Below, piece after piece: positions 4,161 to 48,718 of a stretch of DNA of 48,718 nucleotides. Positions within the stretch are counted from its first letter, which is position 1; each line of letters opens with the position of its first letter. Below the pieces are notes generated by a model. The model did not search any database. It was not told where the DNA came from and worked only from the letters and a program-made list of their open reading frames with translations. The position numbers and the translations under genes were made by a program. This stretch comes from Acidimicrobiaceae bacterium (GTDB lineage: Bacteria > Actinomycetota > Acidimicrobiia > Acidimicrobiales > UBA8190), in the NCBI GenBank assembly GCA_003139255.1, contig PLIG01000150.1, positions 494-49,211 on the forward strand, written 5' to 3'.

Positions 4161-4194
4161 CTTTGCCGTCCTCCTTGGTCTTGACCTTCTCGGT

Positions 4195-5021: not shown

Positions 5022-5044
5022 CCCGACGGACCGGCGGGGACATT

Positions 5045-5761: not shown

Positions 5762-5808
5762 GTCGGTTCCTCTCTTCTTCTTGCCACTCGTTGCCGACGA
5801 GCTGCCAC

Positions 5809-6240: not shown

Positions 6241-6286
6241 GGGGCGGTGACCTCCAATCGGACCTGTTAGGTCCTGTCGGACCTGC

Positions 6287-6976: not shown

Positions 6977-6986
6977 GACCAGCAGC

Positions 6987-7295
6987 TCACGACTTGAAGA
7001 GGAAGATCACGGCGTGCGAGAACGCGTAGTTCAGGACGAAGATCAGGGACACCAGCAGGACCAAGGTGATGAAGACCACCGTTGCCGAATTGACAACCTC
7101 GGGACGAGTGGGCCACGCCACTTGTCGCAACTCAGAGCGCACCTCGCGGGCGAACTCCACCACCCGACCGGGGGCGGACATCTCCGGTTGCGCCTGCGGG
7201 CGGGGCTTCGCAGGTGCCTGGCGCCGGGCCGCGGGAGAGCCGTCGGCCTCCACTTGGCCCTGGCGCTGCATTATGCGCTTCATCTCTCGGTTCAC
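6987..7295 (-). CDS. secE: Preprotein translocase subunit SecE
   Basis: The product is the small membrane subunit of the Sec translocon. The conserved C-terminal part is clear: the amphipathic segment [21 protein letters not shown] followed by one membrane helix ([20 protein letters not shown]). The N-terminal 45 residues are a charged, proline-rich tail. I chose GTG 7295 (102 residues), with GAAAGG about 11 bases upstream; ATG 7283 is an alternative. Frames starting further upstream would overlap tRNA-Trp and are rejected. The gene lies between tRNA-Trp and nusG, as usual in actinobacteria. Confidence 0.93.
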
Positions 7296-7340
7296 TGCTT
7301 CGCACGCCTTTCGACTGCGCACCTCTTGGCGGGAAGGTAG

Positions 7341-7416
7341 TGGCAGGGCAGGAGGGACTCGAACCCCCAACCGCCGGTTTTGGAGACCGGTGCTCTACCA
7401 GTTGAGCTACTGCCCT
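7341..7416 (-). tRNA. tRNA-Trp (CCA)
   Basis: The minus strand folds into a complete cloverleaf. The acceptor stem is AGGGCAG/CTGCCCT, the anticodon loop is CTCCAAA with anticodon CCA, and the T loop is TTCGAGT. The discriminator base is G and the CCA end is encoded. It lies between rpmG and secE. Confidence 0.96.
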
Positions 7417-7583
7417 CCGGCAGCTCGGGCACCACTGCCCCCCAGCCGGCCTTCGGGGACCCAACAAAGGAGGTTACCTCGTTCCACAGGCGGACTGCGG
7501 CGCCCCCGAGCCCGGCTGAGGCCCTTTGCCAGCCGGTGGGCCGTGTCCAATGCACCTTCGGTCCGAGGGTGCGCCCCAACCCC

Positions 7584-7748
7584 CTAGCGGGTCTCTTTGT
7601 GGAGGGTGTGGCGGCGATCCCAGCGACAGTACTTGTTCATCTCGATGCGCTCCCGGTCGTTCTGCCGGTTCTTCATCGTGATGTAGTTGCGCCGTTTGCA
7701 CACCTCGCATGCCAAGGTGACCTGCACGCGCTTCTCGTTCTTCGCCAT
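7584..7748 (-). CDS. rpmG: 50S ribosomal protein L33
   Basis: This 54-residue protein of the large subunit starts at ATG 7748 with AGGAGCG upstream. It reads [20 protein letters not shown] and ends [17 protein letters not shown]. The first zinc-knuckle half CxxC is intact, but the second half has only one Cys: CRWD stands where CPxC is expected in zinc-binding L33. The protein therefore sits between the classical four-Cys form and the Cys-less form. Whether it still binds zinc, perhaps with Asp as a ligand, is unknown. Longer upstream frames would run through two tRNA genes and are rejected. Confidence 0.95.
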
Positions 7749-7816
7749 CGTCGCTCCTGCTCTTGCTCTGCAACATCTCGGGCGAGACGCCCCCGAGGGC
7801 TCCTCCCCACGGCTTG

Positions 7817-7889
7817 TAGCGGCGGCGGGACTCGAACCCGCGACCCCACGATTATGAGCCGTGTGCTCTACCGACTGAGCTACGCCGCC
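7817..7889 (-). tRNA. tRNA-Met (CAT)
   Basis: The minus strand gives acceptor stem GGCGGCG/CGCCGCT, D arm, anticodon stem CACGG/TCGTG with loop CTCATAA (anticodon CAT), and T arm GCGGG-TTCGAGT-CCCGC. The first acceptor pair is G-U rather than the mismatch typical of initiator tRNA, so it is most likely the elongator. The CCA end is not encoded. Confidence 0.93.
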
Positions 7890-7972
7890 GTGTTGCTGAC
7901 GCCTACGGCACCATTGTGGGACCCCACCCCCTCCAGATGGGCGAGGTCCGGCCCCACCGCTGGCCGTAGGTG

Positions 7973-8045
7973 AGCCCCCTGTCGGAATCGAACCGACGAC
8001 ACCAGCCTTACCATGGCTGTGCTCTACCGACTGAGCTAAGGGGGC
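7973..8045 (-). tRNA. tRNA-Thr (GGT)
   Basis: The minus strand folds with acceptor stem GCCCCCT/AGGGGGC, anticodon stem CAGCC/GGCTG with loop ATGGTAA (anticodon GGT), and T arm GTCGG-TTCGATT-CCGAC. CCA is not encoded. It is the first gene of the tRNA-Thr, tRNA-Met, rpmG series. Confidence 0.95.
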
Positions 8046-8071
8046 CGGCACGGCACTTGCCGCAGCGTCGC

Positions 8072-8100
8072 AGCATATCGTCCCTCGCCCACTCTGCCGA
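8072..8100 (-). promoter_or_regulatory. Likely promoter of tRNA-Thr / tRNA-Met / rpmG
   Basis: On the minus strand TCGGCA (8095-8100) is followed after 17 bases by TATGCT (8072-8077), placing transcription start about 20 bases before tRNA-Thr. The -35 match is partial. Confidence 0.5.
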
Positions 8101-8115
8101 AGCGCCGCCCGCCGG

Positions 8116-8121
8116 TACCAT
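8116..8121 (+). promoter_or_regulatory. -10 box (TACCAT) of a leaderless start
   Basis: TACCAT lies 8 bases before the ATG of the acetyltransferase gene, and no Shine-Dalgarno sequence is present. This is the spacing expected when transcription begins at the start codon. Confidence 0.5.
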
Positions 8122-8129
8122 CCCATCTC

Positions 8130-8615
8130 ATGCAGGTCCGCTTGGCGCATGCGGGCGACGCCGAGGCGATCCGTCACATCTACAACGCGGAGGTGACGGA
8201 ATCGACGGTCACCTTCGATCTTGAGCCGCGCACCGCACGCGCCCAGCGTGCTTGGGTCGCTCGACATCAGGGCGTGCACCCGGCGCTCGTTGCCGTGGAG
8301 GATCCCGAGGTGTGCGGTTTCGGCTCGCTCTCGCCGTTTCACGACCGTGCGGCCTATGCCACAACGGTGGAGGACTCGGTCTACGTCGAAGGGGACTGGC
8401 GCGGTCTCGGCGTGGGCCGCCTGCTGCTCGAGGAGCTGGTGCGCCTGGCGACCGACCAGGGCTTCCACACTGTGATCGCCAGAACCACCACTGGCAACAT
8501 CCCCTCCATTGCCCTCCACCAGACCTGCGGATTCACTCTCGTGGGCATCGAGCGTGAAGTCGGCCGCAAATTCGGTCGGTGGCTCGACGTTGCCATCCTC
8601 CAGCGGATGCTTTGA
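8130..8615 (+). CDS. GNAT-family N-acetyltransferase (phosphinothricin acetyltransferase/MnaT-like)
   Basis: The 161-residue protein has the GNAT fold. It starts [20 protein letters not shown], typical of the PAT/MnaT branch, which acetylates amino-acid analogues such as methionine sulfoximine or phosphinothricin. The acetyl-CoA-binding motif A is [20 protein letters not shown], and the C-terminal part has [20 protein letters not shown], also typical of this branch. The start is ATG 8130; transcription is probably leaderless. It is divergent from the tRNA-Thr gene and convergent with mptB. The exact substrate cannot be told from sequence. Confidence 0.85.
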
Positions 8616-8726
8616 GAGGCGTCCCGAACCGATCCGACCGGCGTAACACCTTCGTGCCTGCAGGCAGATCAACCGACGGCTCTTGCCGTGCGCCGGCGGC
8701 CACTTACCTCGATTCCGGACATCCTC

Positions 8727-10451
8727 TCAAACGCCGACATAGTCGAAACCGGGCGCCGGTTCGCCCACCTGCCCTCTCGGCCCGTCGCCACGCCGGCGCC
8801 AGCGGGGAAGAAGCCGCTCGCGGTCGAACGGGGTGAGCGGAACCGTGAGGATCGCGAGACACGCGAGCAGTGCGAGGGCCACGCTAAGCGGGTTGGCGTG
8901 CAGCAGGTCCCATGCCAGCTGCCGGCCGCCGGGCAAACCCACGAAGACGGAGAAAACGGAAAGCCCGACGATTAGCGAACAGACCTTCCGCGTCGCCACC
9001 GGGGCGAGGAGGAGGAGCCCCCACGACAGGTACCACGGCTGGACCACCGGACCGAGCACCACCACGAGCAGCATCGTGAGCCCCATGGCGCGCAGGACGC
9101 CGACCTGGTCGCAGCGCAGCAACATCCTCACGCCCACCACCGCCGCTGCGCCGAGCCCGACGACGCGGGTCACCGACAACACGCTGTGAAGCGGTACGCC
9201 CACCCCCACCAGATGCGTGAGGTCGGTGATCACCATCCCCGCCCCCGTCGCCGGTGCCACCCACGAGCGGACCGTCCCGGGTGTGGCCAGGTTCATCACC
9301 CAGCTCCAGCCGAGACCCGTCACGAGAGTCAGCGCACCCATGACGGCGCCAGCCACCAGTCCGGCGGTGACCACCGGGCGCACCCGGGCGCGAAGCGGCA
9401 GGTCGGTGCCGGTCCAGTCCCAGGCGATGTAGAGGATCCCGAGGGCGGCTGGGATCTTCACCGCAGCCGCGAGCGAACAGAGCACGATGCCGGCGACGGG
9501 TCTACCGCGTTTGGCAACCGCCAGGCCGGCCAGCATCAGGCCGAGCATCAGGGCGTCGTTGTGGGCCCCCCCTACGAGGTGCAGGATCGTAAGCGGGTTG
9601 AGCACTGCCAGGGTGAACACGTACGCGGCGTCACGTCCCATGCTGCGGGCCAGGGTGGGGATGCTCAGGGCGATCAGCCCTACGCCACCGAGCGCGAGCA
9701 GGCGTAGCAACAGCAGATCGGGCACCTCCTGGTGAAACGAGATGCTCGTGATAATGCCGTCGAGCTTCATGAACAGAGGCCCGTAGGGAGCGGGTGTGTT
9801 CAGCCAGAGCTTGTCCACCAACGTCACCGACGGAACCCCACCAAGCACCCCCGGGCCGTAGTGGTAGGGGCTTATGTGATGGCTCATCATCTCGCCTTGA
9901 GCCACGTAGCTGTAGACGTCGCGGCTGAAAAGAGGGGGCGCGAGCAACAGAGGTAGCACCCACAGGGCGAAGACCCCCACCAGCTTGCGCACGGGCACTC
10001 CCTGTAGCTGGGATGTGGCGCGTATGAGGCTGTACCAGGCGCGCATCAGGAGCACCAGCCCCCCGTAGACAGCCACCAGCCCGAGGAAGAGGCCGTGCGT
10101 CGAAGGTTTCGCTCCCGAGGCGGGCACTCCGAAGAACCACGCGCCGGCCTGCTTCAACACGAAAGGCGAGCGCTGCTGGGAGACTCCCGCGGTGATGGCA
10201 GTGACGGCGATGCATCCGAGGATCGCGGGTCGCACTAGAAGACGTGAGCCGTCACCGGCAACCGAAGAGGGGGTGATGTCGGGACCGACGAGGGCGTTGA
10301 AGGGCCAGCGCGACCGCACCGCCTCGTCCCACGCGGTCAACCTGTCGAGAACTCTCGGCACGGCAGGCACTGCTGCCAAGCGACGAGCCGGCCCACGTAT
10401 CAGGCGGCCGAAGAACCCACGAAGATCGGTCTTGGTCGCTTCGCCCGTCAC
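8727..10451 (-). CDS. mptB: Polyprenol-phosphomannose-dependent alpha-1,6-mannosyltransferase, MptB-like
   Basis: The 574-residue integral membrane protein has about a dozen hydrophobic helices. After the first helices it carries FSRDVYSYVAQGEMMSHHIS near residues 176-195, followed by PYHYGPG and APYGPLF. This Asp-bearing periplasmic loop is typical of GT-C glycosyltransferases of the MptA/MptB group, which extend lipomannan-type alpha-1,6-mannan with polyprenyl-phosphate mannose in mycobacteria and relatives. The family call is firm but the sugar specificity is inferred. The start is GTG 10451; a promoter TTGACG-17-TAGCTG lies at 10501-10529. The C-terminal 45 residues are charged and cytoplasmic. 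It fits with the other polyprenyl-linked glycan genes nearby (GtrA, UppP, the Alg5-like transferase). Confidence 0.85.
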   Translation of the reverse strand: MTGEATKTDLRGFFGRLIRGPARRLAAVPAVPRVLDRLTAWDEAVRSRWPFNALVGPDITPSSVAGDGSRLLVRPAILGCIAVTAITAGVSQQRSPFVLKQAGAWFFGVPASGAKPSTHGLFLGLVAVYGGLVLLMRAWYSLIRATSQLQGVPVRKLVGVFALWVLPLLLAPPLFSRDVYSYVAQGEMMSHHISPYHYGPGVLGGVPSVTLVDKLWLNTPAPYGPLFMKLDGIITSISFHQEVPDLLLLRLLALGGVGLIALSIPTLARSMGRDAAYVFTLAVLNPLTILHLVGGAHNDALMLGLMLAGLAVAKRGRPVAGIVLCSLAAAVKIPAALGILYIAWDWTGTDLPLRARVRPVVTAGLVAGAVMGALTLVTGLGWSWVMNLATPGTVRSWVAPATGAGMVITDLTHLVGVGVPLHSVLSVTRVVGLGAAAVVGVRMLLRCDQVGVLRAMGLTMLLVVVLGPVVQPWYLSWGLLLLAPVATRKVCSLIVGLSVFSVFVGLPGGRQLAWDLLHANPLSVALALLACLAILTVPLTPFDRERLLPRWRRRGDGPRGQVGEPAPGFDYVGV

Positions 10452-10500
10452 CTCGAACCCATCAGCTCGGATTTGGTCCCCTGGTCAAAGGTAGACCACC

Positions 10501-10529
10501 CAGCTACCTCCACAGGGCCTGCCCGTCAA
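10501..10529 (-). promoter_or_regulatory. Candidate promoter of mptB
   Basis: On the minus strand TTGACG (10524-10529) and TAGCTG (10501-10506) are 17 bases apart, about 50 bases before the mptB start. The -10 box lacks the final T. Confidence 0.4.
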
Positions 10530-10633
10530 CAAGCTCCTGTCAGAAACGGAGAATCTTCGTAAAGACATTGTAATGAGGTGTTGCCCAAAGGCAAGTCGGT
10601 GGAGCCAACGCGGCGACGTCCGGGTGAGACACC

Positions 10634-10668
10634 GTCTGTGGGCCGGAAAGTGTCTGTGGGCCGGGAAG
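10634..10668. repeat. Tandem duplication of the tRNA-Tyr 3' end
   Basis: GTCTGTGGGCCGGAAAG (10634-10650) is followed by GTCTGTGGGCCGGGAAG (10652-10668), an 18-base period. The second copy is the 3' terminus of tRNA-Tyr plus flank; the first is a partial extra copy just downstream of the gene. Confidence 0.8.
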
Positions 10669-10738
10669 GATTCGAACCTTCGTAGGCAATGCCGGCAGGT
10701 TTACAGCCTGCTCCCTTTGGCCGCTCGGGCACCGACCC
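10657..10738 (-). tRNA. tRNA-Tyr (GTA)
   Basis: The minus strand has acceptor stem GGGTCGG/CCGGCCC (one U-G pair), a long variable arm as expected for class II tRNA-Tyr, anticodon stem GCAGG/CCTGC with loop CTGTAAA (anticodon GTA), and T loop TTCGAAT. The discriminator is A and CCA is not encoded. Confidence 0.95.
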
Positions 10739-10843
10739 GCAGCGACGTTACCGCGAGGGCCACAGGCCCGTTGCAGACACCTTCTCCAAGGCACCGCGCG
10801 GCCGGCGGGCCACCGAGTCCAGGGCACGCACTGCACGCAGCAT

Positions 10844-10849
10844 TAGGGT
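10844..10849 (+). promoter_or_regulatory. -10 box (TAGGGT) of leaderless yajQ
   Basis: TAGGGT ends 7 bases before the yajQ ATG, and no Shine-Dalgarno sequence lies between. The start is therefore probably leaderless. Confidence 0.55.
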
Positions 10850-10856
10850 CTCACTC

Positions 10857-11345
10857 ATGCCGACTTTCGACGTCGTCTCCGAGGTGGACATGCAAGAGGT
10901 TCGTAACGCGGTGGACCAGGCCAATCGCGAGGCTGGAACACGATTCGACTTCAAGGGCACCGATTCTTCGGTCGAGCTCGGCTCGGGGGAGCTGGTTCTT
11001 CACTCGACCACCGAAGATCGCCTGCGCGCCCTTCACCAGGTGCTCGAGGAAAAGCTCGTCCGCAGGCAGGTATCCCTGAAAGCTCTCGAGGACAAGAAGG
11101 CTGAGGAGGCCGCCAAGGGAACGGTCCGCCAGCACATCGCGATCCACGCGGGCATCTCCGCTGACAACGCCAAGCGCATCAACAAGTTCATCAAGGACAT
11201 GAACCTGAAGGGGGCCTCCTCGCAAACTCAGGGCGACCAGGTCCGGGTGTCCTCGAAGAAACGCGACGATCTACAGACGGTGATCCAAGCGCTCAAGGAA
11301 GGGGACTTCGGCATCCCCCTCCAGTGCACCAACTTCCGCGACTGA
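10857..11345 (+). CDS. yajQ: YajQ-family nucleotide-binding protein
   Basis: The 162-residue protein matches the YajQ/DUF520 family over its full length. It starts MPTFDVVSEVDMQEVRNAVD and has the family segments FDFKGTDSSVEL, SKKRDDLQTVIQALK and DFGIPLQCTNFRD. YajQ proteins bind nucleotides, and in Xanthomonas a member is a cyclic-di-GMP effector; no role is known here. A longer frame to 10689 would cover tRNA-Tyr, so ATG 10857 is chosen, supported by the -10 box at the leaderless distance. The last 75 bases overlap the 3' end of the gtrA-family gene on the other strand. Confidence 0.93.
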   Translation: MPTFDVVSEVDMQEVRNAVDQANREAGTRFDFKGTDSSVELGSGELVLHSTTEDRLRALHQVLEEKLVRRQVSLKALEDKKAEEAAKGTVRQHIAIHAGISADNAKRINKFIKDMNLKGASSQTQGDQVRVSSKKRDDLQTVIQALKEGDFGIPLQCTNFRD

Positions 11346-11951
11346 CGCGCTCTCGACAGCAATCTGCCCTCGGACCGAGGCAGCCTCCGGCCGATCGAGC
11401 GCGAAACCCTGTTCTGCGCTGACGGCCGTCGCCTGCCTCGTCGCGATTCGCGCGATCTTTGCCTCGCTGTGCGCTTCGGCCCTCGGGCGATGGCGGAAGA
11501 GCTGCTCGAAGACCAGAAACTTCCCAACCCAAAGAACACCGTAGGCGGCCAAGTTCGCGCCTAGGACGATCACCGTATGCCCGAAGTGGTGAAGCTGGTG
11601 CGAGTCACTGAAATCGCGGGCCATAGCGGCTGCCCAGGTGGACAGCGCCAAACCGGCGAACGAAACGAGCCAGAACGGAAGGACCTCCTTCACCAGGTGC
11701 GACCGCCCCGCCTTGCCCCACGCCCAGCGGCGGTTCAAGTAGTACGAGGGCACCGTTGCAACCGCGTTGGCGAAGACAGCGGACGGCACCTCCGACCAGA
11801 GGTGAGCCACGCCGAACACGAGGCCAAGGACCCCGAGAGACACAATGGTCGAGATCACCGACACCATCGTGTAACGAACCAACTTCTTGCCATAAGGGGT
11901 CTGGTACACGCGCCGAAGGCGCTCGAAACTCTCCGCGAGCGTGCTGGGCAT
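11271..11951 (-). CDS. GtrA-family membrane protein
   Basis: The 226-residue protein has the GtrA domain in its first 160 residues: KLVRYTMVSVISTIVSLGVL, then ANAVATVPSYYLNRRWAWGK (the conserved NRxWxF-like motif), with four predicted membrane helices ending near WVGKFLVFEQLF. GtrA proteins are thought to move polyprenyl-phosphate-linked sugars across the membrane or to assist glycosyltransferases. The last 65 residues are a hydrophilic, non-conserved tail, longer than usual, and its coding DNA overlaps yajQ by 75 bases. I chose ATG 11951 rather than GTG 11960 because a TAAGGT -10 box overlaps the GTG and lies 7 bases from the ATG. Confidence 0.88.
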   Translation of the reverse strand: MPSTLAESFERLRRVYQTPYGKKLVRYTMVSVISTIVSLGVLGLVFGVAHLWSEVPSAVFANAVATVPSYYLNRRWAWGKAGRSHLVKEVLPFWLVSFAGLALSTWAAAMARDFSDSHQLHHFGHTVIVLGANLAAYGVLWVGKFLVFEQLFRHRPRAEAHSEAKIARIATRQATAVSAEQGFALDRPEAASVRGQIAVESASVAEVGALEGDAEVPFLERLDHRL

Positions 11952-11958
11952 CTGTGCC

Positions 11959-11964
11959 ACCTTA
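11959..11964 (-). promoter_or_regulatory. -10 box (TAAGGT) of the gtrA-family gene
   Basis: On the minus strand TAAGGT lies 7 bases before ATG 11951 and contains part of the alternative upstream GTG codon, which would then not be transcribed as a start. Confidence 0.5.
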
Positions 11965-12147
11965 CCCCCGCATCATGGCCGAACCTCGTACGCGACGCTC
12001 AAAGCGGTCTCTCAGGAAGGGGGCTGGAGGGCGATTCCCCTGGACAGGTCCACGAGCCACAGACTGCTCGTTCCTGGTAGTTCCTGAGCGGCCGCGAAGT
12101 TGCGCCGGGTGAACACTTGCGGTCGACCCGTAGGCGCCTGGAATGAT

Positions 12148-13014
12148 GTGCCCGTGGGCGAGGCCCTGGACTCCCTGGTGAAGCTGCTCGACATCGAGCC
12201 GATCGAGGTCAACATCTTTCGGGGTGTCGGCCCCGACGAGCACCGCCTGCGTATTTTCGGGGGCCAGGTGGCCGCCCAGTCGCTCATGGCAGCCGGACGA
12301 ACCGTGGAGCGGGGCCGGGTTCACTCGCTGCACTCGTACTTCTTGCGCCCCGGCGACCCGAAGGCCCCGATACTCTACGAGGTCGATCGCATCCGCGACG
12401 GCCGGTCGTTCACCACACGACGGGTCCTGGCGATCCAGCACGGGGAAGCCATCTTCAACATGGCGACGTCGTTCCACGTCGACGAGGAAGGCCCTCTCGT
12501 CCATCAGCTGCCCATGCCCAAAGTGCCCCTGCCCGATGAGTTGAAGCCCCTTTCGGAGCGGCTCGAACCCTTCCGGGACCAGCTCGCCGATTGGTTCGCG
12601 CGCCCCCATCCCATCGACCAGCGTCACGTTGGCGAACTGCCGTGGATCGCCCACGAGAGCCGCGAGCCAGTCCAACGACTGTGGATCCGAGCTGACGGCA
12701 CGCTCGGCGACGACCCGCTTCTCCACGCGTGCGTGGCGGTCTACGCCTCCGACATGTCGCTGTTCGACACGATGCTGGCTCCGCACGACGTGCGATGGCA
12801 CGGTGCAGAGTTCATGGGGGCCAGCCTCGACCACTGCATGTGGTTCCACCGGCCGTTCCGGGCGGACGAATGGCTGCTCCACGACATGGACAGCCCCAGT
12901 GCCTGTGGGGCGAGGGGCCTGGCTCGTGGCTTTCTGTTCGCTCGCGACGGGACGCTCGTGGTCTCCATGGTCCAAGAGGGCCTCATGCGTGTCATCACCC
13001 GCCCCTCGCCTTGA
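12148..13014 (+). CDS. tesB: Acyl-CoA thioesterase II
   Basis: The 288-residue double-hotdog enzyme hydrolyses acyl-CoA to free acid and CoA. With GTG 12148 as start, the length and numbering agree with E. coli TesB. The three catalytic residues fall at Asp202 (YASDMSLFDT), Ser226 (GASLDHCMWFH, where E. coli has Thr) and Gln276 (VQEGLMR). The N-terminal LVKLLDIEPIEVNIFRG and the FGGQVAAQSLMAA motif are typical. GTG 12154 is an alternative start two codons later. It is divergent from the gtrA-family gene and converges on gltA. The physiological acyl chain length is not evident. Confidence 0.93.
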   Translation: MPVGEALDSLVKLLDIEPIEVNIFRGVGPDEHRLRIFGGQVAAQSLMAAGRTVERGRVHSLHSYFLRPGDPKAPILYEVDRIRDGRSFTTRRVLAIQHGEAIFNMATSFHVDEEGPLVHQLPMPKVPLPDELKPLSERLEPFRDQLADWFARPHPIDQRHVGELPWIAHESREPVQRLWIRADGTLGDDPLLHACVAVYASDMSLFDTMLAPHDVRWHGAEFMGASLDHCMWFHRPFRADEWLLHDMDSPSACGARGLARGFLFARDGTLVVSMVQEGLMRVITRPSP

Positions 13015-13069
13015 TCGTACTGCCGATCACACCGGGCACCGCAGCTCCGGGACTCGTTTAAGCGAACGG

Positions 13070-14338
13070 TCAGCGATTTTCGAGCGGCACGTACTCGCGC
13101 TGCGCTGCGCCGATGAACAGCTGTCGGGGACGGACGATCTTGGCATCCTGCTCAAGCAGCTCCTGCCAGTGCGCAAGCCATCCGGAGGTCCGGGGAATGG
13201 CGAAGAGGACGGGGAACATCTCGAGGGGAAAGCCCATAGCCTGATAGATGAGCCCCGAGTAGAAGTCGACGTTCGGGTAGAGCTTCCGACTAGTGAAGTA
13301 CTCGTCTTGGAGCGCGACCTCCTCGAGTTTCAAGGCGATGTCGAGGAGCGGGTTCTTGCCGGTGACGGCGAACACCTCGTCGGCAATGCGCTTGATGATC
13401 TTGGCCCGGGGGTCGTAGCTCTTGTAGATGCGGTGGCCGAACCCCTGTAGCAGCGCGTGGCCACCCTTGACCGAGTTGATGAACGCGGGCACGTTCTCCG
13501 TCGACCCGATCTCACCAAGCATGCGGATCACCGCCTCGTTGGCTCCCCCGTGGCGAGGGCCGTAGAGGGCAGCGCACGCGGCCGCACAGCACGAGTACGG
13601 GTCGGCATGGGACGAGCCCAGGATCCTCATCGCAGTCGTGGAACAGGCTTGCTCGTGGTCGGCGTGGAGGATGAACAGGACGTCCAGAGCTCGCGCAAGG
13701 GCGGGGTTCACGTCGAAGCGGGGCTCGGCCACCTTCCACATCATCGAGAGGAAGTTCGAGCAGAAGTCGAGAGAATTGTCCGGGTAGACGAAGGGCATCC
13801 CCACGCTGAAACGGTGGGCAGCTGCAGCAAGGGTCGGCGTCTTGGCGATCACCCGGATGATCTGGCGCCACCGCGACCCGGGATCATCGATGTCCTTGGC
13901 CTCGCGATAGAAGGTCGACAGCGCCGCCATCGCGGATACAAGTATTCCCATGGGGTGGGCGTCGTAGTGGAAACCCTCGAGGAACCGCTTGCGTACGTTC
14001 TCGTGGATGAATGTGTGGTACGTGATCTCGTGGCTCCACAGGTCTAACTGCTCGGTGGTGGGAAGTTCGCCGTGCAGCAGCAGGTAAGACACCTCCAGAT
14101 AGCTCGACCGCTCAGCGAGCTCCTCGATCGGGTAGCCGCGGTAGCAAAGGACACCGTTTTCCCCGTCTACGAAGGAGATGGCGCTCTCGCACGTGGCTGT
14201 AGCGGTGAGGCCGGGATCGTAGAACACGATGCCCGGCAGAACCTTCTGCCACTCGCTGGCCGGTACCCCTCCCTGGCGGATCGGGATCTCAAGCTGGCTA
14301 CCCGTCCGGTTGTCGATGATTGTAATGCTCTCTGCCAC
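13070..14338 (-). CDS. gltA: Citrate synthase
   Basis: The 422-residue enzyme condenses acetyl-CoA with oxaloacetate. It is the long, hexameric type I form. The catalytic residues are His263 (GPRHGGANEA), His302 (GFGHRIYKSYDPR) and Asp358 (YPNVDFYSG). The N-terminal domain with the double-Cys motif near residues 50 and 65 is intact, so NADH sensitivity is possible but not shown. The start is GTG 14338, with AGGAGGG 10 bases upstream. Unlike many neighbours it has a normal leader, with -10 TAGGAT at 14370-14375. In this window it links the ethylmalonyl-CoA genes to the TCA cycle. Confidence 0.96.
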   Translation of the reverse strand: MAESITIIDNRTGSQLEIPIRQGGVPASEWQKVLPGIVFYDPGLTATATCESAISFVDGENGVLCYRGYPIEELAERSSYLEVSYLLLHGELPTTEQLDLWSHEITYHTFIHENVRKRFLEGFHYDAHPMGILVSAMAALSTFYREAKDIDDPGSRWRQIIRVIAKTPTLAAAAHRFSVGMPFVYPDNSLDFCSNFLSMMWKVAEPRFDVNPALARALDVLFILHADHEQACSTTAMRILGSSHADPYSCCAAACAALYGPRHGGANEAVIRMLGEIGSTENVPAFINSVKGGHALLQGFGHRIYKSYDPRAKIIKRIADEVFAVTGKNPLLDIALKLEEVALQDEYFTSRKLYPNVDFYSGLIYQAMGFPLEMFPVLFAIPRTSGWLAHWQELLEQDAKIVRPRQLFIGAAQREYVPLENR

Positions 14339-14369
14339 GACGCTCGGGCCCTCCTGTCAGGTTGGATGG

Positions 14370-14399
14370 ATCCTACGGCGCTTGGGGCGTCACGGTTAA
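14370..14399 (-). promoter_or_regulatory. Candidate gltA promoter
   Basis: On the minus strand TTAACC (14394-14399) and TAGGAT (14370-14375) are separated by 18 bases, giving a leader of about 25 bases that contains the Shine-Dalgarno sequence. Confidence 0.45.
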
Positions 14400-14517
14400 A
14401 TGCGGAATGCTCTGGCACAAAAGAACAGCCTCTTCTGCGCCTGTGGTCCCACCTTCCCGGGCTCTTTCCCCACTCAGTCTCCCCCGGGCTTCTTTCGCTA
14501 CTTGGCCTCCCGGGCTT

Positions 14518-15909
14518 CTATCGCTGCTTGTTTCCTGCCCGGGTTCTCGTCCCAGCTCGTGAGCTCGCCGGCGCACGGATGACGTTCTCGATCAGAGGCG
14601 GCGACGTGGCGGCCGAGCGGCTGGGGTCGCCTGAATAGACGGCCGTGATCGCGTGAACGTCGGCAGCCGCATAGAACACCGAACAGGTCGCCTCACCGCG
14701 GCTCACCGGCTGGGCGGTACAAGTGGCGATCGGCAAGCTGTCGTCGTCGAACGCGACCGTCCCGTTGGCCGCGGGCAACCCTGTCAACGACGCGGACACG
14801 CGAACCGTATAGGTCACTCTCTTGCCCACCGCGATCGCGCTAGCCGACGGCAGCACCGACATGATCGTGACCGCTTTGTCCACCGCCACCGAAAACGACA
14901 TGACTACGGGACTTGCAGGCGTTGCCGGCGTTGCGACAACGCGTAGCGTGTAGGACGCCCCCGGGGCGACAGCAAGGGCGCGAAGCACTAGCGCGACCGA
15001 AGTGCCCGCAGCGATGTCGATCGTTGTCCCGAGAGAAGCGGTGCTCTGCGCGCCCGAGGAGGCTACTGAAGCCACCACCTCCACCCGATGCTCGTCCACA
15101 TTGCCCTGGTCGGCCACGACCACGTGCACACGCAGTGCAGCGCTCGGCGGGACGAGGACACCGGCCGCCGAGCGCTGCGACGGCGCCGGGACCGTGACAA
15201 CGTTTGTGATCGCGAGGCGGTGAGCCGGTGCCAGCGTAGGCGACCCGTTCACGGCCGCCACGAAGTCGCTAAGGGGCCCTGGTGCCCACAACGACGGATC
15301 CGACACCCATGTTGACGCAACGAGACGAGGGGATCCCGCTGCACGACGAAGTGACCTCCTGCAAGCCGCCCACAAGGCGTCGTCCGATTCGAGCGCGCCG
15401 CCCACCGAGCTCATGGATCGGACCGTGCCCGCCTCATCAGCGGCTCGTGCGCCGGCTCCGGTCTTTCCGCCGAGCACTCCTTCCAGGGCACCGCTGAGGT
15501 CTGCTAATGCCCGGGCTCGTCCGTCGATGGAGCGTGCGCAATCGGAAGCCGCTGTCGCTGCGGGAACGGGAGGTGTGATCGCATTGAACTGCCCTGCGAG
15601 GGCCTCGCTCGAAGTGGCCAGCGCGTCAAGTTCCGCGAAGAACTTCGCTCGATCGAGGGTAGGGCCCTCTCGCAACAACGTCATCAGATCGGTGCCCGAG
15701 GAGTCCGAAGAAACAACCAGAGGTGCAACCAAAGCGGCATAGCCACGATCCACCGTCCTGCGGTACGAACTGGACGCTGGAGAGATCTGCGACACGGTCC
15801 CGATCGTCAGGACGACCACAACCGCAATGCCACCGGCAAGGACGAGAGCCGGGAGTAATCTTCGCTTGAGCGCGCGCCGCCGCCGGAACCGGCGTCTCTG
15901 CCCGACCAT
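14518..15909 (-). CDS. Secreted or membrane-anchored protein with C-terminal bacterial Ig-like domain
   Basis: I do not recognise the whole 463-residue protein. It starts with a strongly basic stretch (about 12 Arg/Lys in the first 17 residues) and one hydrophobic helix (LLPALVLAGGIAVVVVLTIG), which would anchor it with the rest outside. Residues 45-200 are helical with no known domain. Residues 240-340 look like beta-sandwich modules. Residues 355-445 match the Big_3_5-type Ig-like repeat: KRVTYTVRVSASLTGLPAANG, FDDDSLPIATC, then HAITAVYSGDPSRSAATSPP. The C-terminus is basic. It stands alone between gltA and the sulfoquinovose synthase gene, on the same strand as both. A cell-surface role is inferred. 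Confidence 0.75.
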   Translation of the reverse strand: MVGQRRRFRRRRALKRRLLPALVLAGGIAVVVVLTIGTVSQISPASSSYRRTVDRGYAALVAPLVVSSDSSGTDLMTLLREGPTLDRAKFFAELDALATSSEALAGQFNAITPPVPAATAASDCARSIDGRARALADLSGALEGVLGGKTGAGARAADEAGTVRSMSSVGGALESDDALWAACRRSLRRAAGSPRLVASTWVSDPSLWAPGPLSDFVAAVNGSPTLAPAHRLAITNVVTVPAPSQRSAAGVLVPPSAALRVHVVVADQGNVDEHRVEVVASVASSGAQSTASLGTTIDIAAGTSVALVLRALAVAPGASYTLRVVATPATPASPVVMSFSVAVDKAVTIMSVLPSASAIAVGKRVTYTVRVSASLTGLPAANGTVAFDDDSLPIATCTAQPVSRGEATCSVFYAAADVHAITAVYSGDPSRSAATSPPLIENVIRAPASSRAGTRTRAGNKQR

Positions 15910-15958
15910 TTGAGCACCTTAGAACGTGCATCTAAGACCGCGGCGGCCTCCCCGGAGG

Positions 15959-17275
<1,317 letters not shown>

Positions 17276-44035: not shown

Positions 44036-44077
44036 CTGGCGGGGCGTTGCGGTCCGAGGTGGCCGGTGTCCGGTGCG

Positions 44078-44178
44078 GCGGCCAGATTTGCTGCGGCACA
44101 CGAACGTACCCGCTGAGAGCTGCTGCCTTCCGGCCCTGACTCGGTTCACGGGCGCCCGTTGCGCAGGACCCGGCCGCC
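44078..44178 (-). ncRNA. ffs: Signal recognition particle RNA, small bacterial (4.5S) type
   Basis: The minus strand carries the hallmark domain IV core GAGTCAGGGCCGGAAGGCAG with its GGAA tetraloop, then CAGCTC. Around it CCCG/CGGG, AACG/CGTT and GCGC/GTGC helices pair at increasing distance, making the rod of a hairpin RNA of about 100 bases. This RNA with Ffh targets membrane proteins. Position upstream of dnaX and beside a tRNA-Ser gene is common in actinobacteria. The ends are estimated from pairing. Confidence 0.85.
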
Positions 44179-44242: not shown

Positions 44243-44328
44243 CGGAGGAGTGCGAGAGCGGACGAATCGGCACGACTGGAAATCGTGTGTGGGGAAACTC
44301 ACCGTGGGTTCAAATCCCACCTCCTCCG
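44243..44328 (+). tRNA. tRNA-Ser (GGA)
   Basis: The plus strand has acceptor stem GGAGGAG/CTCCTCC, anticodon stem CACGA/TCGTG with loop CTGGAAA (anticodon GGA), the long variable arm of class II tRNAs, and T arm GTGGG-TTCAAAT-CCCAC. Discriminator G; CCA not encoded. A TAGCCT -10 box at 44211-44216 may drive it. Confidence 0.95.
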
Positions 44329-44396
44329 CGCAACGCAGGAAGGGGTGGTGGATTGGTAGCTGGCGCGCTCATGCCGGCACGTCTGGCACCAGTGTC

Positions 44397-44885
44397 ATGT
44401 CTGGGTTGACAAGCTTCGGGGTACCAGAGCCGCAGGTGCTCGACGACGAGGCCGCCATGCGAAGGGCGCTGGACCAGGCCCGCGCTGCGGCCGCGCACGG
44501 CGACGTGCCAGTGGGAGCCGTCGTGGTATCAGAGGGCACGGTCGTTGCCTCCCGCCACAACGAACGTGAGCTGCGGCACGACCCGACCGCTCACGCCGAG
44601 ATCCTCGCCCTGCGCGATGCCGCATGGGCCATGGGTTCATGGAGGCTCAACATGGCGACGCTGGTCGTGACGCTCGAACCTTGCCCCATGTGCGCCGGTG
44701 CTGCGGTTGCCTCGCGTCTCGGGCGAATCGTGTTCGGGGCGGTCGACCCGAAGGTGGGCGCGTGCGGTTCTGTCTACCAGTTGTGTAACGATCCCCGCCT
44801 GAGCCACGAACTGCCCGTAACGGGCGGCGTCCTCGCCGACGAGGCGTCAGACTTGCTCAAAGCCTTCTTCTCCGACCGCCGCTGA
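44397..44885 (+). CDS. tadA: tRNA-specific adenosine deaminase
   Basis: The 162-residue zinc deaminase converts A34 of tRNA-Arg(ACG) to inosine. The active site is His66-Ala-Glu68 (PTAHAEILALRDAAW) and Cys96/Cys99 (LEPCPMCAGAAVASRLGRIVFG), and DPKVGACGSVYQL is typical of TadA. ATG 44397 is chosen; the frame upstream runs through tRNA-Ser and is a shadow. No strong ribosome binding site is seen. It lies between tRNA-Ser(GGA) and the broken tRNA-Ser(CGA). Confidence 0.93.
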   Translation: MSGLTSFGVPEPQVLDDEAAMRRALDQARAAAAHGDVPVGAVVVSEGTVVASRHNERELRHDPTAHAEILALRDAAWAMGSWRLNMATLVVTLEPCPMCAGAAVASRLGRIVFGAVDPKVGACGSVYQLCNDPRLSHELPVTGGVLADEASDLLKAFFSDRR

Positions 44886-45010
44886 GCCGAGCCCCTGACA
44901 CCGCTTCTCAACGATTGCCCATCCGTCGGGTGCTCTGACGATGCAAGAATGGCCCTTCTGGGTTCTTGGCCAAGGTCGCCCAGGCGCTGCCAAAAGCACA
45001 AGGCCCCGGT

Positions 45011-45050
45011 GGAGGAGTGCGAGAGCGGACGAATCGGACGGTCTCGAAAA
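45011..45050 (+). pseudogene. 5' half of tRNA-Ser (CGA), broken in the anticodon arm
   Basis: The first 27 bases are identical to the start of tRNA-Ser(GGA) at 44243. They continue into anticodon stem ACGGT and loop CTCGAAA with anticodon CGA (45045-45047). The homology stops one base after the loop: the 3' stem, variable arm, T arm and acceptor 3' strand are missing, and no 3' half was found in the remaining 3.7 kb. The precise break point in the anticodon arm is a common crossover place for tyrosine recombinases. Confidence 0.85.
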
Positions 45051-45311
45051 GCGCAAAAGGTCGTCGGACGAGATGGCGTGGGACGACGAAAGACGACCTG
45101 ACTTGGGACGATGTTGGTGTCCCACGACGCTCCACGACACCCGACGATCCCAGAAGACGTCCAAAACTAGGACAAAAACTAGGACAGGGCTCGCGAACGG
45201 CTCGTTTCGGGTCACCCAAAAGCCACATGCCTGTCGCGCTCAGAGAACAGCGTTCGAACCAGTCGACTAACAGTTCCCCGGCCCTTCGCAGCTGCGTCGC
45301 CGTAAGGACAC
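45051..45311. other. Repeat-rich non-coding DNA after the broken tRNA
   Basis: No gene is convincing here. The stretch has at least six GACGA/ACGAC motifs between 45060 and 45150 on the plus strand, inverted repeats such as GGTGTC (45116-45121) with GACACC (45136-45141), and a 12-base tandem repeat. This resembles the arm region of an attachment site, or a decayed integrase end, but no integrase motif is present. Confidence 0.45.
45163..45186. repeat. 12-bp tandem repeat AAAACTAGGACA x2
   Basis: Two perfect direct copies (45163-45174 and 45175-45186) stand in otherwise unique DNA 110 bases after the broken tRNA-Ser. Confidence 0.9.
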
Positions 45312-45494
45312 TTAGGCTGTCGCCTTCGCGACGATACGGATTTCGGCGTCGAGAGCCTCAACGATACGCCGGAGCGTTTTCTCGGTGGGGTTTGCCGCAC
45401 CGCGCTCGATCCGGCTGATCTCGCTCTGGTTGATGCCTGTATCGTCTGCGAGTTGCGCCTGGGTCACGCCGCGCTGTTCGCGCAGCTCCATCAA
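45312..45494 (-). CDS. Short XRE-family helix-turn-helix protein, probably 5'-truncated
   Basis: The 60-residue frame is almost entirely one XRE domain: ELREQRGVTQAQLADDTGIN, then QSEISRIERGAANPTEKTL and RRIVEALDAEIRIV. Relatives, including HigA-type antitoxins, are usually 90-110 residues with 30-40 residues before this point. Here a stop codon occurs six codons before the ATG, no Shine-Dalgarno sequence is seen, and no toxin gene is next to it. It may be a remnant of a toxin-antitoxin pair or a small intact regulator. Confidence 0.7.
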   Translation of the reverse strand: MMELREQRGVTQAQLADDTGINQSEISRIERGAANPTEKTLRRIVEALDAEIRIVAKATA

Positions 45495-45595
45495 CTGGAG
45501 CGATACCGGTCAGTCTTGCGCCCCAGCCCGGTGGACAGGAACCGGCAGGGACGCTACCGGACGCGCCGGGTCCCGGCGAGGGCGGGACCGAGGGG

Positions 45596-46390
45596 TCAGC
45601 CCACCGTGGCGATGCCGCCGTCCACCGGGATGATCGCCCCGGTGAGGTAGGCGCCGGCCCGCGAGGCCAGGAAGATGGCGGTCCCGGCCATGTCGTCGGG
45701 TCGCCCGATGCGCTTGAGCGGGGCGGAGGAGGCGATCTGCTCCCCGAAGGCCTCGAGGGTGGCAGCCATCATCTTGGACTCGAACGGCCCCGGGGCGATG
45801 GCGTTCACGGTGATGTCGGGTGCCAGGTGCCTGGCCAGGTGCCGGGTGAGCTGATGGACGGCGGCCTTGGACGAGGAGTACGAGTACGACTCGAGGATGG
45901 GCACGTGGAATGCGTCGATGGAACCGATGTTGACGACCCGGGAGGAGTCGTCGGCCGTGGCCCGGGCTCGCAGGAGGGGCAGGAAGTACTTGGTGGTGTG
46001 GAAGACGCCCTGGACGTTGAGGTCGAGGACCCGGTTCCACGAGGCGGAGTCGTGCTCCTCCAGCGGGGCGCCCCAGGTGGCGCCGGCGTTGTTGACGAGC
46101 ACGTCGACGTGGTCGTTCCCGGCGGCGACCGCCTCGGCCAGCCCCCGGGCACCCTTCTCGGTGGAGAGGTCGGCGGGGACGCCCCGGCACTCCCCGAGCT
46201 CGGACAGCTCGGCGACGGTGGCGTCGACCGCCCCGGCCTTCCGCGACGACACGATGACGGTGGCCCCGCCGGCCACGAACCCGGCGGCGATCATGTGGCC
46301 GATGCCCCGGGTGCCCCCGGTCACCACCACGGTCTTGCCGGTCACCGAGAAGAGTTCGGACGGCGGGGTGGGCGGAGGCTGCTGGCTCAT
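45596..46390 (-). CDS. Short-chain dehydrogenase/reductase, RhlG-like
   Basis: The 264-residue NAD(P)-dependent oxidoreductase has VVTGGTRGIGHMIAAGF for the cofactor, VLVNNAGATWGAPLEEH, the catalytic Ser in VVNIGSIDAFHVP and Tyr-x3-Lys in YSYSSSKAAVHQL, then NAIAPGPFESKMMAATLEAF and TGAIIPVDGG. The wording is close to RhlG-type 3-oxoacyl reductases, but the substrate is open. ATG 46390 overlaps the stop of the upstream dehydrogenase fragment (ATGA). Its DNA is markedly more GC-rich than the flanks, which suggests a different origin. Confidence 0.88.
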   Translation of the reverse strand: MSQQPPPTPPSELFSVTGKTVVVTGGTRGIGHMIAAGFVAGGATVIVSSRKAGAVDATVAELSELGECRGVPADLSTEKGARGLAEAVAAGNDHVDVLVNNAGATWGAPLEEHDSASWNRVLDLNVQGVFHTTKYFLPLLRARATADDSSRVVNIGSIDAFHVPILESYSYSSSKAAVHQLTRHLARHLAPDITVNAIAPGPFESKMMAATLEAFGEQIASSAPLKRIGRPDDMAGTAIFLASRAGAYLTGAIIPVDGGIATVG

Positions 46391-46692
46391 GGGTTGTGAA
46401 GGTATCCCACCCGGTCGTCGACCAGGGCCGACCGGTTCAGTGCCGACACGTCGGTGACCTCGGTGAGCCCCATGGCCACCTCCATCTCCTGGCGGAGGAT
46501 CCGGAGGATGTGGGCCACCCCGCCCTCCCCCCGGGCGGCCACCGCGTAGGCCCACGGGCGACCGACGAGGCAGGCCCGGGCGCCCAGGGCCAGCGCCTTC
46601 ACCACGTCGAGGCCGCTCCGGATCCCGCCGTCCACCAGCACCTCGGCGGCGTCGCCCACGACGTCGACGATGGCCGGCAACGCCGAGACGGT
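46387..46692 (-). pseudogene. 3' fragment of an FMN-dependent alpha-hydroxy-acid dehydrogenase
   Basis: Only the last 100 residues of the family are present. From TVSALPAIVDVVGD the sequence runs through the FMN-phosphate region EVLVDGGIRSGLDVVKALAL and ARACLVGRPWAYAVAA to the normal C-terminus. The first roughly 260 residues, including the catalytic His and substrate Arg, are gone. Upstream of about 46692 the frame continues to 46791 but is unrelated to the family, so there is an abrupt junction. The fragment overlaps the SDR gene by four bases, so the two were probably an operon before truncation. Confidence 0.82.
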
Positions 46693-47005
46693 GGGCAGAA
46701 TGGGCATGTCGGCTTTCGACGTAAACCGCAACGGCTTCTGCCGCGCCTGCAATAGTCGACCGATATCACCTGCTCCGCTGTGGCCAACCAACGTGCCAGA
46801 CCATCCGCTACTGCCGGGGAGGAGTGCGGCCTCGCTTAGCGCTGGGACGAGCAGTATCGCTCCGGGGCCGCTGATAGCGAGCGGTCCTGCCTGAACGCCG
46901 GGTTACCGGCATCGGCACTTCCCGCCTAGTCCACTTCGTTACCATTGAATCAATATCGAATGGCTTAAGATCTGTTAAGACTTGGTCACCGGGAGGGCGA
47001 GAAGG
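46693..47005. promoter_or_regulatory. Intergenic region with AT-rich palindromes before the lipoprotein gene
   Basis: There is no gene here. The right part (46941-46980) is far richer in A and T than the window average. It has nested inverted repeats: CCATT...AATGG enclosing ATTGA-A-TCAAT, and CTTAA-GATCTG-TTAAG. A TTGAAT box is followed 15 bases later by TAAGAT, a possible promoter for the gene at 47006. The palindromes could be operators. Confidence 0.4.
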
Positions 47006-47689
47006 ATGCCCAGGGACCAGGTGTTTCGCCACAGAGATCCTCGTCATTGCTCGATTGCAAGGCTTTGGTATTTCGGTCGTCTCTCAGTTCCTGCAGCAAT
47101 GGTCATCCTCTGTGGTGCGTGTGCATCCCCATCTAAGTCATCGACATCCCGCTCGTTGTCAACAAGCTCAACTTCGGTCACTTCACCCAACCCATCGACG
47201 ACAACCGGCCCCGTCACAACAGCCGCCTGTACACCGAACCAGCTCACGGGAACGGTCGCCTTCAATGCGACTGGCACAGAACTGGGAGCGATCAAGCTGT
47301 CAAACACGGTGAGCGAGGCATGCTCGCTGTCAGGCCAGCCGACAGTCACCGTGTTGGGCGATAACGGAGTGTCACTTGCCCAAACCGAGTCGACCTATCA
47401 TCGTGCCCCGGACTGGCCATCTCCAACACATCCGATTGTGCTGTCGCCTTCGGGTGAGTTGCCTCAAGCAATCGTCGAAGTCGACTGGGTTTGGTGCGGG
47501 CCATCTCCCCATGAGCTGGAATTTCAGGTCCGTTTCCCGACGTGGTCATCTCCACTTGATATTCCGAGAACTTCAATTTCACCGTCTGGGTTCTCTCCAG
47601 CAAGCTGTTCAAGCTCAGGAACTGGTGCACTCTTCGCCGTGGACTACGTACGCGGCTTTGGGTCGAATGGGATCATCGGACCCTCCTAG
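47006..47689 (+). CDS. Putative secreted lipoprotein, DUF4232-like
   Basis: I recognise the family only loosely. The 227-residue protein has a basic start, a hydrophobic segment (FGRLSVPAAMVILCGACA) ending in a Cys that fits an imperfect lipobox, a Ser/Thr-rich linker of about 40 residues, and a beta-rich domain. Its wording AACTPNQLTGTVAFNATGTE and SNTVSEACSLSGQPTVTVLG resembles DUF4232 proteins of actinobacteria. Paired Cys suggest disulfides. ATG 47006 is preceded by GGGAGG at nine bases. GC content is clearly lower than in the core genes, suggesting acquired DNA. Function unknown. Confidence 0.65.
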   Translation: MPRDQVFRHRDPRHCSIARLWYFGRLSVPAAMVILCGACASPSKSSTSRSLSTSSTSVTSPNPSTTTGPVTTAACTPNQLTGTVAFNATGTELGAIKLSNTVSEACSLSGQPTVTVLGDNGVSLAQTESTYHRAPDWPSPTHPIVLSPSGELPQAIVEVDWVWCGPSPHELEFQVRFPTWSSPLDIPRTSISPSGFSPASCSSSGTGALFAVDYVRGFGSNGIIGPS

Positions 47690-48226
47690 CAGGCGCAGGC
47701 CAGAACGATGGCATGCCGATGTTCTTGAGGTTGCCGGATGAGCCCTGCCCGGGAACGACAATTATGTGCCGGTCGCGCGACGATTGGGGAGTGTGCAGGA
47801 ATGCCGGGTTGCGTGACTCCAGATTGAAGCCTGTCGGAACAGCGTATGAGCAGTATCACGCGGGAAGTGGCTGTTGCATGAATCAGTTCGCGCGCTGCGC
47901 GAATGCACGTTCGTCCACCACATTGCCGTCTACGGTCCTGAATCGGCTCGTCATGACGGAAATGACCTCCCAAACTGGCCGTTGCTTGAGCGAGAAGGAT
48001 TCATGCGACAGCCTGGGAAGGTTCGTTACCGAACGGTGCATCCCGCGCCACATGACGAACTGACCTCTCTCACACGGCATTACTTATGCGCGACCGACCA
48101 GCGGCGACCCCACATCCCGATGCGAAGCAACGGCGAAGATCAGACAGGCTCGAGGGCCTCATCCACGAGTACGAACTTGCCGCGTGAGAGGTGGACCCGA
48201 CTTTTCGGACTGTACGGGTTGCACGG
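47690..48226. other. No recognisable gene
   Basis: Overlapping frames exist on both strands (for example plus 47713-48063 and minus 47686-47973), but none has a ribosome binding site, known motif or coding bias. One plus-strand frame is open from 47850 to the right edge, but past 48227 it is antisense to a real gene. I see no repeats or RNA genes. Confidence 0.5.
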
Positions 48227-48718
48227 TTATCGGGTTCTCCAGTTAACGAGTCCGTCTAGGGCTTCGACGACGCTGCCGTTGACGTACAGGGGGTTCACCT
48301 CGAGCGCGCTTAGGTCGTCACCGAGAGCCAGAGCGAGGTCGGCGATCGCGGCAATCGCGTCGGTGACGCGATCGAGATTGGCGGGTGGGCGTCCGCGGGC
48401 ACCCTGCAGTATGGAGGCGCCCCGTAGGCTCTCCAGGCCACGGCGAATTTCATCGCGGGCAGCCGGTAGGCGCAGCAGAGCGGCGTCGTCCAGGACCTCG
48501 ACGAAGAGACCGCCCAGCCCGACTGCAAGCACGAGTCCCCAGTCAGGGTCGCGGGCAACACCGGCGAGCAGCTCGATGCCACCCGAACGCATCGGGCTGA
48601 CCAGGACGCCGTCGACCCGATTTGCAGGTTCGAGGTTGTCCGCGCAGGTGAACACCTTGTGGAAAGCCGCGGCGACCTCCTCGACGCCGCTCACATCGAG
48701 GACTACGCCACCGATGTC
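48227..48718 (-). CDS. Acyl-CoA synthetase (ADP-forming type), ATP-grasp C-terminal part, 5' end outside window
   Basis: The frame enters from the right edge and ends at 48227, giving 163 residues. DIGGVVLDVSGVEEVAAAFH, DGVLVSPMRSGGIELLAGVA, RDPDWGLVLAVGLGGLFVEV and the terminal SALEVNPLYVNG are typical of the ATP-grasp domain of ADP-forming acetate/acyl-CoA ligases and related protein acetyltransferases. The CoA-binding and ligase domains, and thus the exact function, lie outside. GTG 48694 inside the frame is not the true start. Confidence 0.85.
   Translation of the reverse strand, partial: DIGGVVLDVSGVEEVAAAFHKVFTCADNLEPANRVDGVLVSPMRSGGIELLAGVARDPDWGLVLAVGLGGLFVEVLDDAALLRLPAARDEIRRGLESLRGASILQGARGRPPANLDRVTDAIAAIADLALALGDDLSALEVNPLYVNGSVVEALDGLVNWRTR

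Follow-up and report, generated by a model that had tools for sequence, protein, structure and literature searches.

A tRNA-Ser(CGA) 5' half broken in the anticodon loop as the probable end of an integrative island in an Acidimicrobiaceae genome

The stretch of DNA analysed here, 48,718 nt long and called the window throughout, covers positions 494-49211 of contig C113 in the genome of an Acidimicrobiaceae bacterium (G000; 2.87 Mb, 237 contigs, 91.3% complete). Its positions 45011..45050 (+) are very probably the displaced native 5' half of a tRNA-Ser(CGA) gene, forming the left attachment junction of an integrative island whose recombination took place in the anticodon loop and whose opposite end now carries the rebuilt gene. 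Most likely no tRNA was lost, a whole copy of tRNA-Ser(CGA) being present at that other end, and an apparent tRNA loss becomes a mapped island end. Within one bacterial family, three different tRNA genes show the less usual polarity of integration, in which the island supplies the 5' half together with the upstream region. Such sites offer a natural system for studying what determines polarity among related integrases and whether host tRNA expression is altered by an island.

Results and discussion

The 5' half in the window and the whole gene elsewhere

The 40 nucleotides at 45011-45050 are identical (40/40) to nucleotides 1-40 of a tRNA-Ser(CGA) gene at C180:2140-2179, with an E-value of 1.4e-14 in a search of the own genome, and the whole gene, at C180:2140-2227, lies on a contig other than C113. 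The identity spans the 5' strand of the acceptor stem, the D arm, the 5' strand of the anticodon stem, the anticodon loop and 1 base of the 3' stem. A preliminary description of this DNA had recognised the exact first 40 bases of a tRNA-Ser(CGA) cut in the anticodon arm, as the comparison with C180 bears out. It had also considered the 3' half lost; that half is indeed absent at 45050, and the intact gene on C180 includes it. Searching the genome for a second tRNA-Ser(CGA or TGA) returned this intact CGA gene as well as a tRNA-Ser(TGA) on C232, so the deduction that UCG must be decoded by another tRNA falls away, and a loss of tRNA-Ser(CGA) from the genome was discarded.

The break falls in the anticodon loop, a known sublocation for crossover, in a genome that holds the whole gene too. 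On anatomical grounds, the 7-nt loop CTCGAAA (45043..45049, +) would be the interval of strand exchange. Immediately 5' of the fragment just 1 further base is common to the C113 and C180 copies, and blastn of window positions 44701-48718 against C180 found nothing else shared beyond chance-length stretches. ARAGORN called no tRNA at 45011-45050 and five elsewhere in the window. An intact tRNA-Ser(GGA) at 44244..44329 (+; ARAGORN; Rfam RF00005, 52 bits), which neighbours tadA and lies outside the island, has its first 27 nt in common with the fragment. Between this tRNA and a dnaX-like frame, named by eye, sits a bacterial small SRP RNA (44077-44175, minus strand; Rfam RF00169, 77.7 bits).

At the thresholds used, the genome yielded two copies of the tRNA-Ser(CGA) 5' half and a single copy of its 3' half. 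A weak match on C97 was tried as a tRNA-Ser(CGA) 3' half and rejected, as it belongs to tRNA-Ser(TGA), to which it is identical at 53/55 nt; the tRNA-Ser(TGA) gene is also present in this genome (C232).

Native order beside tadA

The fragment starts 125 nt past tadA (tRNA adenosine deaminase; 44397..44885, +), the native left neighbour of tRNA-Ser(CGA), which was named in the preliminary description and by resemblance and whose start codon is unsettled. A tadA match at E<1e-40 was found in 36 of 41 genomes including our own, the other 35 being 55-74% identical, and only weak matches in 3 more of the 41. Full-length tRNA-Ser(CGA) is present in 14/17 family genomes, own included. The intact locus that had been expected after tadA in relatives is there: tadA is followed by a whole, same-strand tRNA-Ser(CGA) at 29-837 nt in seven of them (G006, G014, G008, G015, G009, G013 and G007). 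The spacing is 3.8 kb in G011 and 4.5 kb in G004, the two genes lie on separate contigs in G003 and G005, and tadA and/or tRNA-Ser(CGA) were not found in G002, G016, G001 and G010. Since tadA and the whole tRNA gene are adjacent in seven relatives, the left side of the junction is taken as native, and by gene order it is the native 5' side of the tRNA-Ser(CGA) locus that the window holds.

In a further relative, G012, tadA is followed by 39 nt of tRNA-Ser(CGA) and then by unrelated DNA. The gene is cut in the same loop, identity with the tRNA ending at position 40 in the window and 39 in G012, and no full-length tRNA-Ser(CGA) was found in this 77% complete genome. The view of the preliminary description that this is an integration site stands. 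Two observations count against the island reading. In G002 and G005 an intact tRNA-Ser(CGA) is accompanied by a divergent integrase or remnant, yet no displaced 5' half was found. Also, in no relative was tRNA-Ser(CGA) seen to be directly followed by the genes right of the C180 tRNA; a homologue of one is present in G007, 13 kb downstream and in opposite orientation.

The same anatomy at tRNA-Ile(GAT) and tRNA-Ser(GCT)

On contig C126 of G000, frames named by eye as dnaA, dnaN, recF, gyrB and gyrA are followed by a 40-nt tRNA-Ile(GAT) 5' half, 39/40 nt identical to the intact gene on C180, and then by other DNA. An integrase frame starts 78 bp from the 5' end of the intact tRNA-Ile(GAT) on C180, reads away from it and ends in N. 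Similarly, contig C80 of G002 carries gyrB and gyrA homologues and then a 40-nt tRNA-Ile fragment, and its contig C65 an intact tRNA-Ile with an integrase 84% identical to the tRNA-Ile one of G000. Among the 13 tRNA-Ile loci L165-L177, a gyrA homologue lies upstream within the 1.5-kb flank in 8; none was found within that flank at L168, L169, L170, L176 and L177, and a longer stretch of G008, the genome of L168, has one 2 kb upstream of tRNA-Ile.

At tRNA-Ser(GCT), two relatives carry both island ends on one contig without an assembly gap. A displaced 5' half of 37 nt precedes the intact gene by 13.9 kb on the same strand in G002 (C34), and one of 41 nt precedes it by 14.5 kb, again on the same strand, in G011 (C287), which delimits 5'-type islands of ~14 kb at L186 (G002) 1964-16020 and L187 (G011) 1474-16116. 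Beside the intact gene of G011 is a divergent integrase of 383 aa that aligns over 344 residues, at 33% identity, with the G002 Ser(CGA) integrase. At the G002 locus the integrase query found no match, and inspection by eye showed no more than a 175-aa N-terminal-like integrase frame. The tRNA-Ser(GCT) of G008 likewise has a divergent integrase, and the 7 kb retrieved there yielded no displaced half. In the 5'-type cases seen, the integrase gene is on the 5' side of the tRNA and points away from it. The gene 3' of tRNA-Ser(GCT) is alike in G002, G011 and G008 (YWLETLGCPKNQVDSDKL), and may encode a RimO/MiaB-like protein. A frame beginning like a metal-transport ATPase was noticed by eye in the G011 island.

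The constant 3' neighbour bears on tRNA-dependent lysogeny, in which the element would bring a complete tRNA of its own, the host gene would not be rebuilt, and the C180 gene would be element-borne. A report on actinobacteriophages (PMC10865867) describes such lysogeny with short cores; the host tRNA gene is there the target of a tyrosine integrase, as it would be here, and the C180 tRNA does adjoin mobile genes. The short core of those phages fails to rebuild the tRNA, however, whereas the core shared here is the whole 40-nt 5' half, not ~10 bp, and is compatible with rebuilding. Moreover, the displaced tRNA-Ser(CGA) 3' half that this reading expects was not found in the genome, where at 91.3% completeness the piece may be missing, the C97 candidate being tRNA-Ser(TGA), and the gene that follows tRNA-Ser(GCT) on its 3' side is unchanged across three genomes. 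tRNA-dependent lysogeny was rejected and appears very unlikely.

The single contigs also bear on the assembly. As the genome contains the 40 nt twice and repeats can cause contig misjoins, a chimera might have arisen at 45050 through this repeat; yet the same break is present in G012, after tadA and followed by a 12-bp tandem of different sequence at the same offset, and in both G002 and G011 a single contig carries this anatomy. A misjoin at 45050, which the preliminary description had allowed for, is thus exceedingly improbable.

Repeats past the break

The 12-bp tandem repeat reported in the preliminary description is real. It consists of two copies of AAAACTAGGACA at 45163..45186 (+; repeat scan) and starts at position 153 from the tRNA start, 114 nt past the anticodon loop. 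In G012 a 12-bp tandem of different sequence occupies exactly 153-176 from the tRNA start, 114 nt past the fragment. At the tRNA-Ile half of C126 a tandem lies at 144-166, 104 nt past the fragment, with a further 10-bp tandem at 59-78, and at that of G002 a weaker one, with a run of 9, lies at 147-167, 107 nt past the fragment. The tRNA-Ser(GCT) halves have a tandem of period 11 at 140-162 (G002; 103 nt past the fragment) and of period 12 at 109-133 (G011; 68 nt). Tandems of period 11-12 are therefore present at 6/6 displaced 5' halves found, starting 109-153 nt from the tRNA start, with runs of at least 11 at five of them and 9 at G002 Ile. Exact tandems of period 10-13 occur at 0.08 per kb in the window (4, including 45163-45186) and at 0.11 per kb over 135 kb of nine other loci, both of these background rates counting some junctions themselves. 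Because similar tandems occur 68-114 nt beyond the break in all six displaced 5' halves found, the tandem at 45163-45186 is probably an arm-type integrase site.

Two of these units are present again on the integrase side, TGTAGGGCA at the tRNA-Ile of C126/C180 and GATTGAAAGAC at the tRNA-Ser(GCT) of G011. Between the two tRNA-Ser(CGA) ends, only the 8-mer TAGGACAG of the C113 tandem is common to C180, for which chance could suffice; AAACTAGGAC also occurs 5' of tRNA-Ser(CGA) in G005, beside the integrase remnant. Of five intact tRNA genes examined on their upstream side, one has a tandem (G002 Ser(CGA), period 11); none was found at the C180 Ser, C180 Ile, G005 and G004 genes.

The tandem and the loop cut also weigh on the origin of the fragment proposed in the preliminary description, namely that an ordinary 3'-type island had inserted here, that a later deletion or rearrangement took the 3' half, and that UCG is decoded by another tRNA. 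It agrees with the preponderance of 3' fragments among tRNA islands (3760 of the 3919 tabulated in the Islander report, PMC4383910). However, an intact tRNA-Ser(CGA) exists in the genome, and the anticodon-loop cut occurs in two genomes with different downstream DNA and with a tandem at the same offset, features that one would not expect a deletion to repeat. With the gene whole at C180:2140-2227, read as the other end of the island, no such later event is needed, and we regard it as highly improbable.

Closer to the break, seven GACGA/TCGTC copies (45060..45147, no strand assigned) could be protein-binding sites of the island end. The seven GACGA within 45054-45160 are equalled in 3/2431 intervals of that size; the enrichment is called moderate because some 5-mer occurs at least 7 times in 30/2431 intervals of the same size. 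Of the arm-like repeats put forward earlier, the reading as integrase arm sites is plausible. No inverted repeat of at least 12 nt was found, and a laxer search gave four pairs of 7-11 nt. As folding yielded z -0.95 for 45054-45160 (30/200 shuffles as good) and z -1.87 for 45011-45110 (9/200), hairpins are at most weakly supported. A distant search of phage records with window positions 45000-45310 gave no match, and a scan for the sigma-70 consensus found no promoter or terminator near the C113 or the C180 copy.

Genes at the two ends

On the island side of C113, the first gene encodes a 60-aa helix-turn-helix protein (45312..45494, -; Pfam HTH_3, E 2.9e-16; PHROG 1373, E 1.8e-14). A short-chain dehydrogenase lies beyond it (45596..46396, -; Pfam adh_short_C2, E 2.9e-49), for which the relative loci fetched gave generic 31-34% matches only. 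A DUF4232 protein is also encoded in the right part of C113. A shortened FMN-dependent dehydrogenase, matching the last quarter of the profile (window 46387-46791), and an ATP-grasp piece (window 48227-48694) are possible gene remnants. No synteny was seen between the right part of C113 and the relatives' loci fetched; such absence right of 45050 would fit an island and is no proof of one. G+C sets the two parts little apart, at 0.660 left versus 0.642 right of the junction, the right side being patchy (0.57-0.72).

Upstream of tRNA-Ser(CGA), C180 carries a Doc-like toxin gene and a XerC-like recombinase, the latter (L004 735-1643) being the nearest recombinase, 496 bp from the tRNA. No arm-binding integrase was found beside this tRNA, and the best trace of a decayed one in the expected place and strand is 23 aa long with an E-value of 0.16, near search noise; the integrase of the island may have decayed. 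The XerC-like recombinase was considered as the responsible enzyme and rejected, since its loci in relatives do not lie beside tRNAs in the C180 arrangement: a tRNA within 600 bp downstream was found at 0/59 related loci scanned, and three (L108, L113 and L121) have any tRNA, none in that arrangement. The set comprised 62 loci (20 + 42), of which 60 were scanned, C180 itself included and L076 and L081 left out; the flank was at most 1.5 kb in the set of 20, many loci are cut by contig ends, and some are the same contig from two collections. The 42 loci in genome contigs are 66-95% identical in the best segment. XerC-like loci are mostly titled Acidimicrobi- or Actinomycetes, and the recombinase is widespread, its loci sharing no tRNA neighbour. 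A match to the HTH_25 gene of C180 is present in 10/40 relatives, never on the tadA contig among these 10, and is on one contig with an intact tRNA-Ile in G006, G014, G011 and G002.

Proposed integration and comparison with known systems

What is directly seen comprises both tRNA-Ser(CGA) sequences, the order of tadA and the tRNA in relatives, and two relatives in which single contigs show this anatomy at another tRNA; we infer that C113 and C180, separate contigs in the 237-contig assembly, are the two ends of one island. The attachment site of the island would carry a copy of the tRNA-Ser(CGA) 5' half, and a tyrosine integrase would exchange strands within the 7-nt anticodon loop, its arm binding probably taking place at the 12-bp tandem. 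The native 5' half would then remain beside tadA, joined to island DNA at 45050, and the 5' half of the island would join the native 3' half at the far end to give the whole gene at C180:2140-2227. Island DNA, presumably with an island promoter, would thereby lie upstream of the rebuilt tRNA-Ser(CGA).

Such an insertion is a known but uncommon mirror image of the usual one. In the Islander report (PMC4383910), 159 islands have a 5' fragment versus 3760 with a 3' fragment, for a total of 3919, and 2083 islands are anticodon-centred. As described there, the 5'-fragment class shares with the present case a displaced 5' tRNA fragment, a regenerated tRNA and a crossover in the anticodon loop; it differs in that the ends lie on two contigs in G000, those of G002 and G011 being on one. 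Conventional 3'-type anticodon-loop islands and prophages use the same kind of target, the same loop and related integrases, whereas in the window it is the 5' half, not the 3' half, that is carried and displaced. Other reports liken the anticodon loop with its stem to lambda attB, with its core sites and 7-bp overlap (PMC8371274), call partial tRNA genes left by integration common (PMC9897764), and note that mycobacteriophage cores usually include the tRNA 3' half (PMC10865867).

Polarity in the family

Displaced 5' halves number six, at Ser(CGA) in G000 and G012, Ile in G000 and G002, and Ser(GCT) in G002 and G011. Displaced 3' halves number 13, one of Ser(CGA) (G015), one of Ser(TGA) (G000) and 11 of Ile, the latter assigned from match ranges alone (six in G003, two in G009, two in G004 and one in G002). 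These counts cover four tRNAs, Ser(TGA) in one genome, and Ser(GCT) was reached through cross-matches of the Ser(CGA) query, which are blind to Ser(GCT) 3' halves, so that 6 versus 13, set against the 159 versus 3760 tabulated in Islander (PMC4383910), is suggestive only. We tentatively raise the idea, in our view rather unlikely, that the related anticodon-loop integrases of this family use both polarities, the 5' one being far commoner than elsewhere, and that islands which repeatedly replace tRNA upstream regions may control tRNA supply.

The conventional polarity is represented in G000 itself. An intact tRNA-Ser(TGA) on C232 (L160 2790-2874) has an integrase on its 3' side, and its displaced 3' half on C97 (L185 ~1400-1460), identical at 53/55 nt, starts at the anticodon loop; as far as anatomy tells, the pair is a conventional 3'-type island, a mirror image within the same genome. 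More widely, 30 integrase loci, one a genome among the matches listed, were classed by coordinates and ARAGORN. At 22 of these 30 listed loci, no more than 200 bp separate the integrase match from the 3' end of a same-strand tRNA; at L141 and L147 such a tRNA lies 0.7-0.8 kb away. L153 (G008) has the 5'-type arrangement, L149 is ambiguous owing to its partial match, and ARAGORN called no tRNA at L132, L135, L137 and L148. A weak Rfam tRNA match (36.7 bits) lies near L135, 94 bp before the integrase.

Tandems were checked at 24 tRNA-integrase loci, namely 21 of the 22 conventional ones (without L152) together with L149, L153 and L160. One of period 11-12 with a run of at least 9 lies 50-82 bp past the tRNA 3' end at 7/24 (L124, L126, L129, L131, L140, L142 and L146), which would fit arm-type integrase sites. 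Another tandem, of period 13, is at L139, and at L150 there is one on the 5' side of the tRNA; the other 15 have none. In G003, the six 3'-half-only tRNA-Ile(GAT) matches (two on C254 and one each on C64, C334, C303 and C120) suggest repeated or tandem insertion of islands at one tRNA gene.
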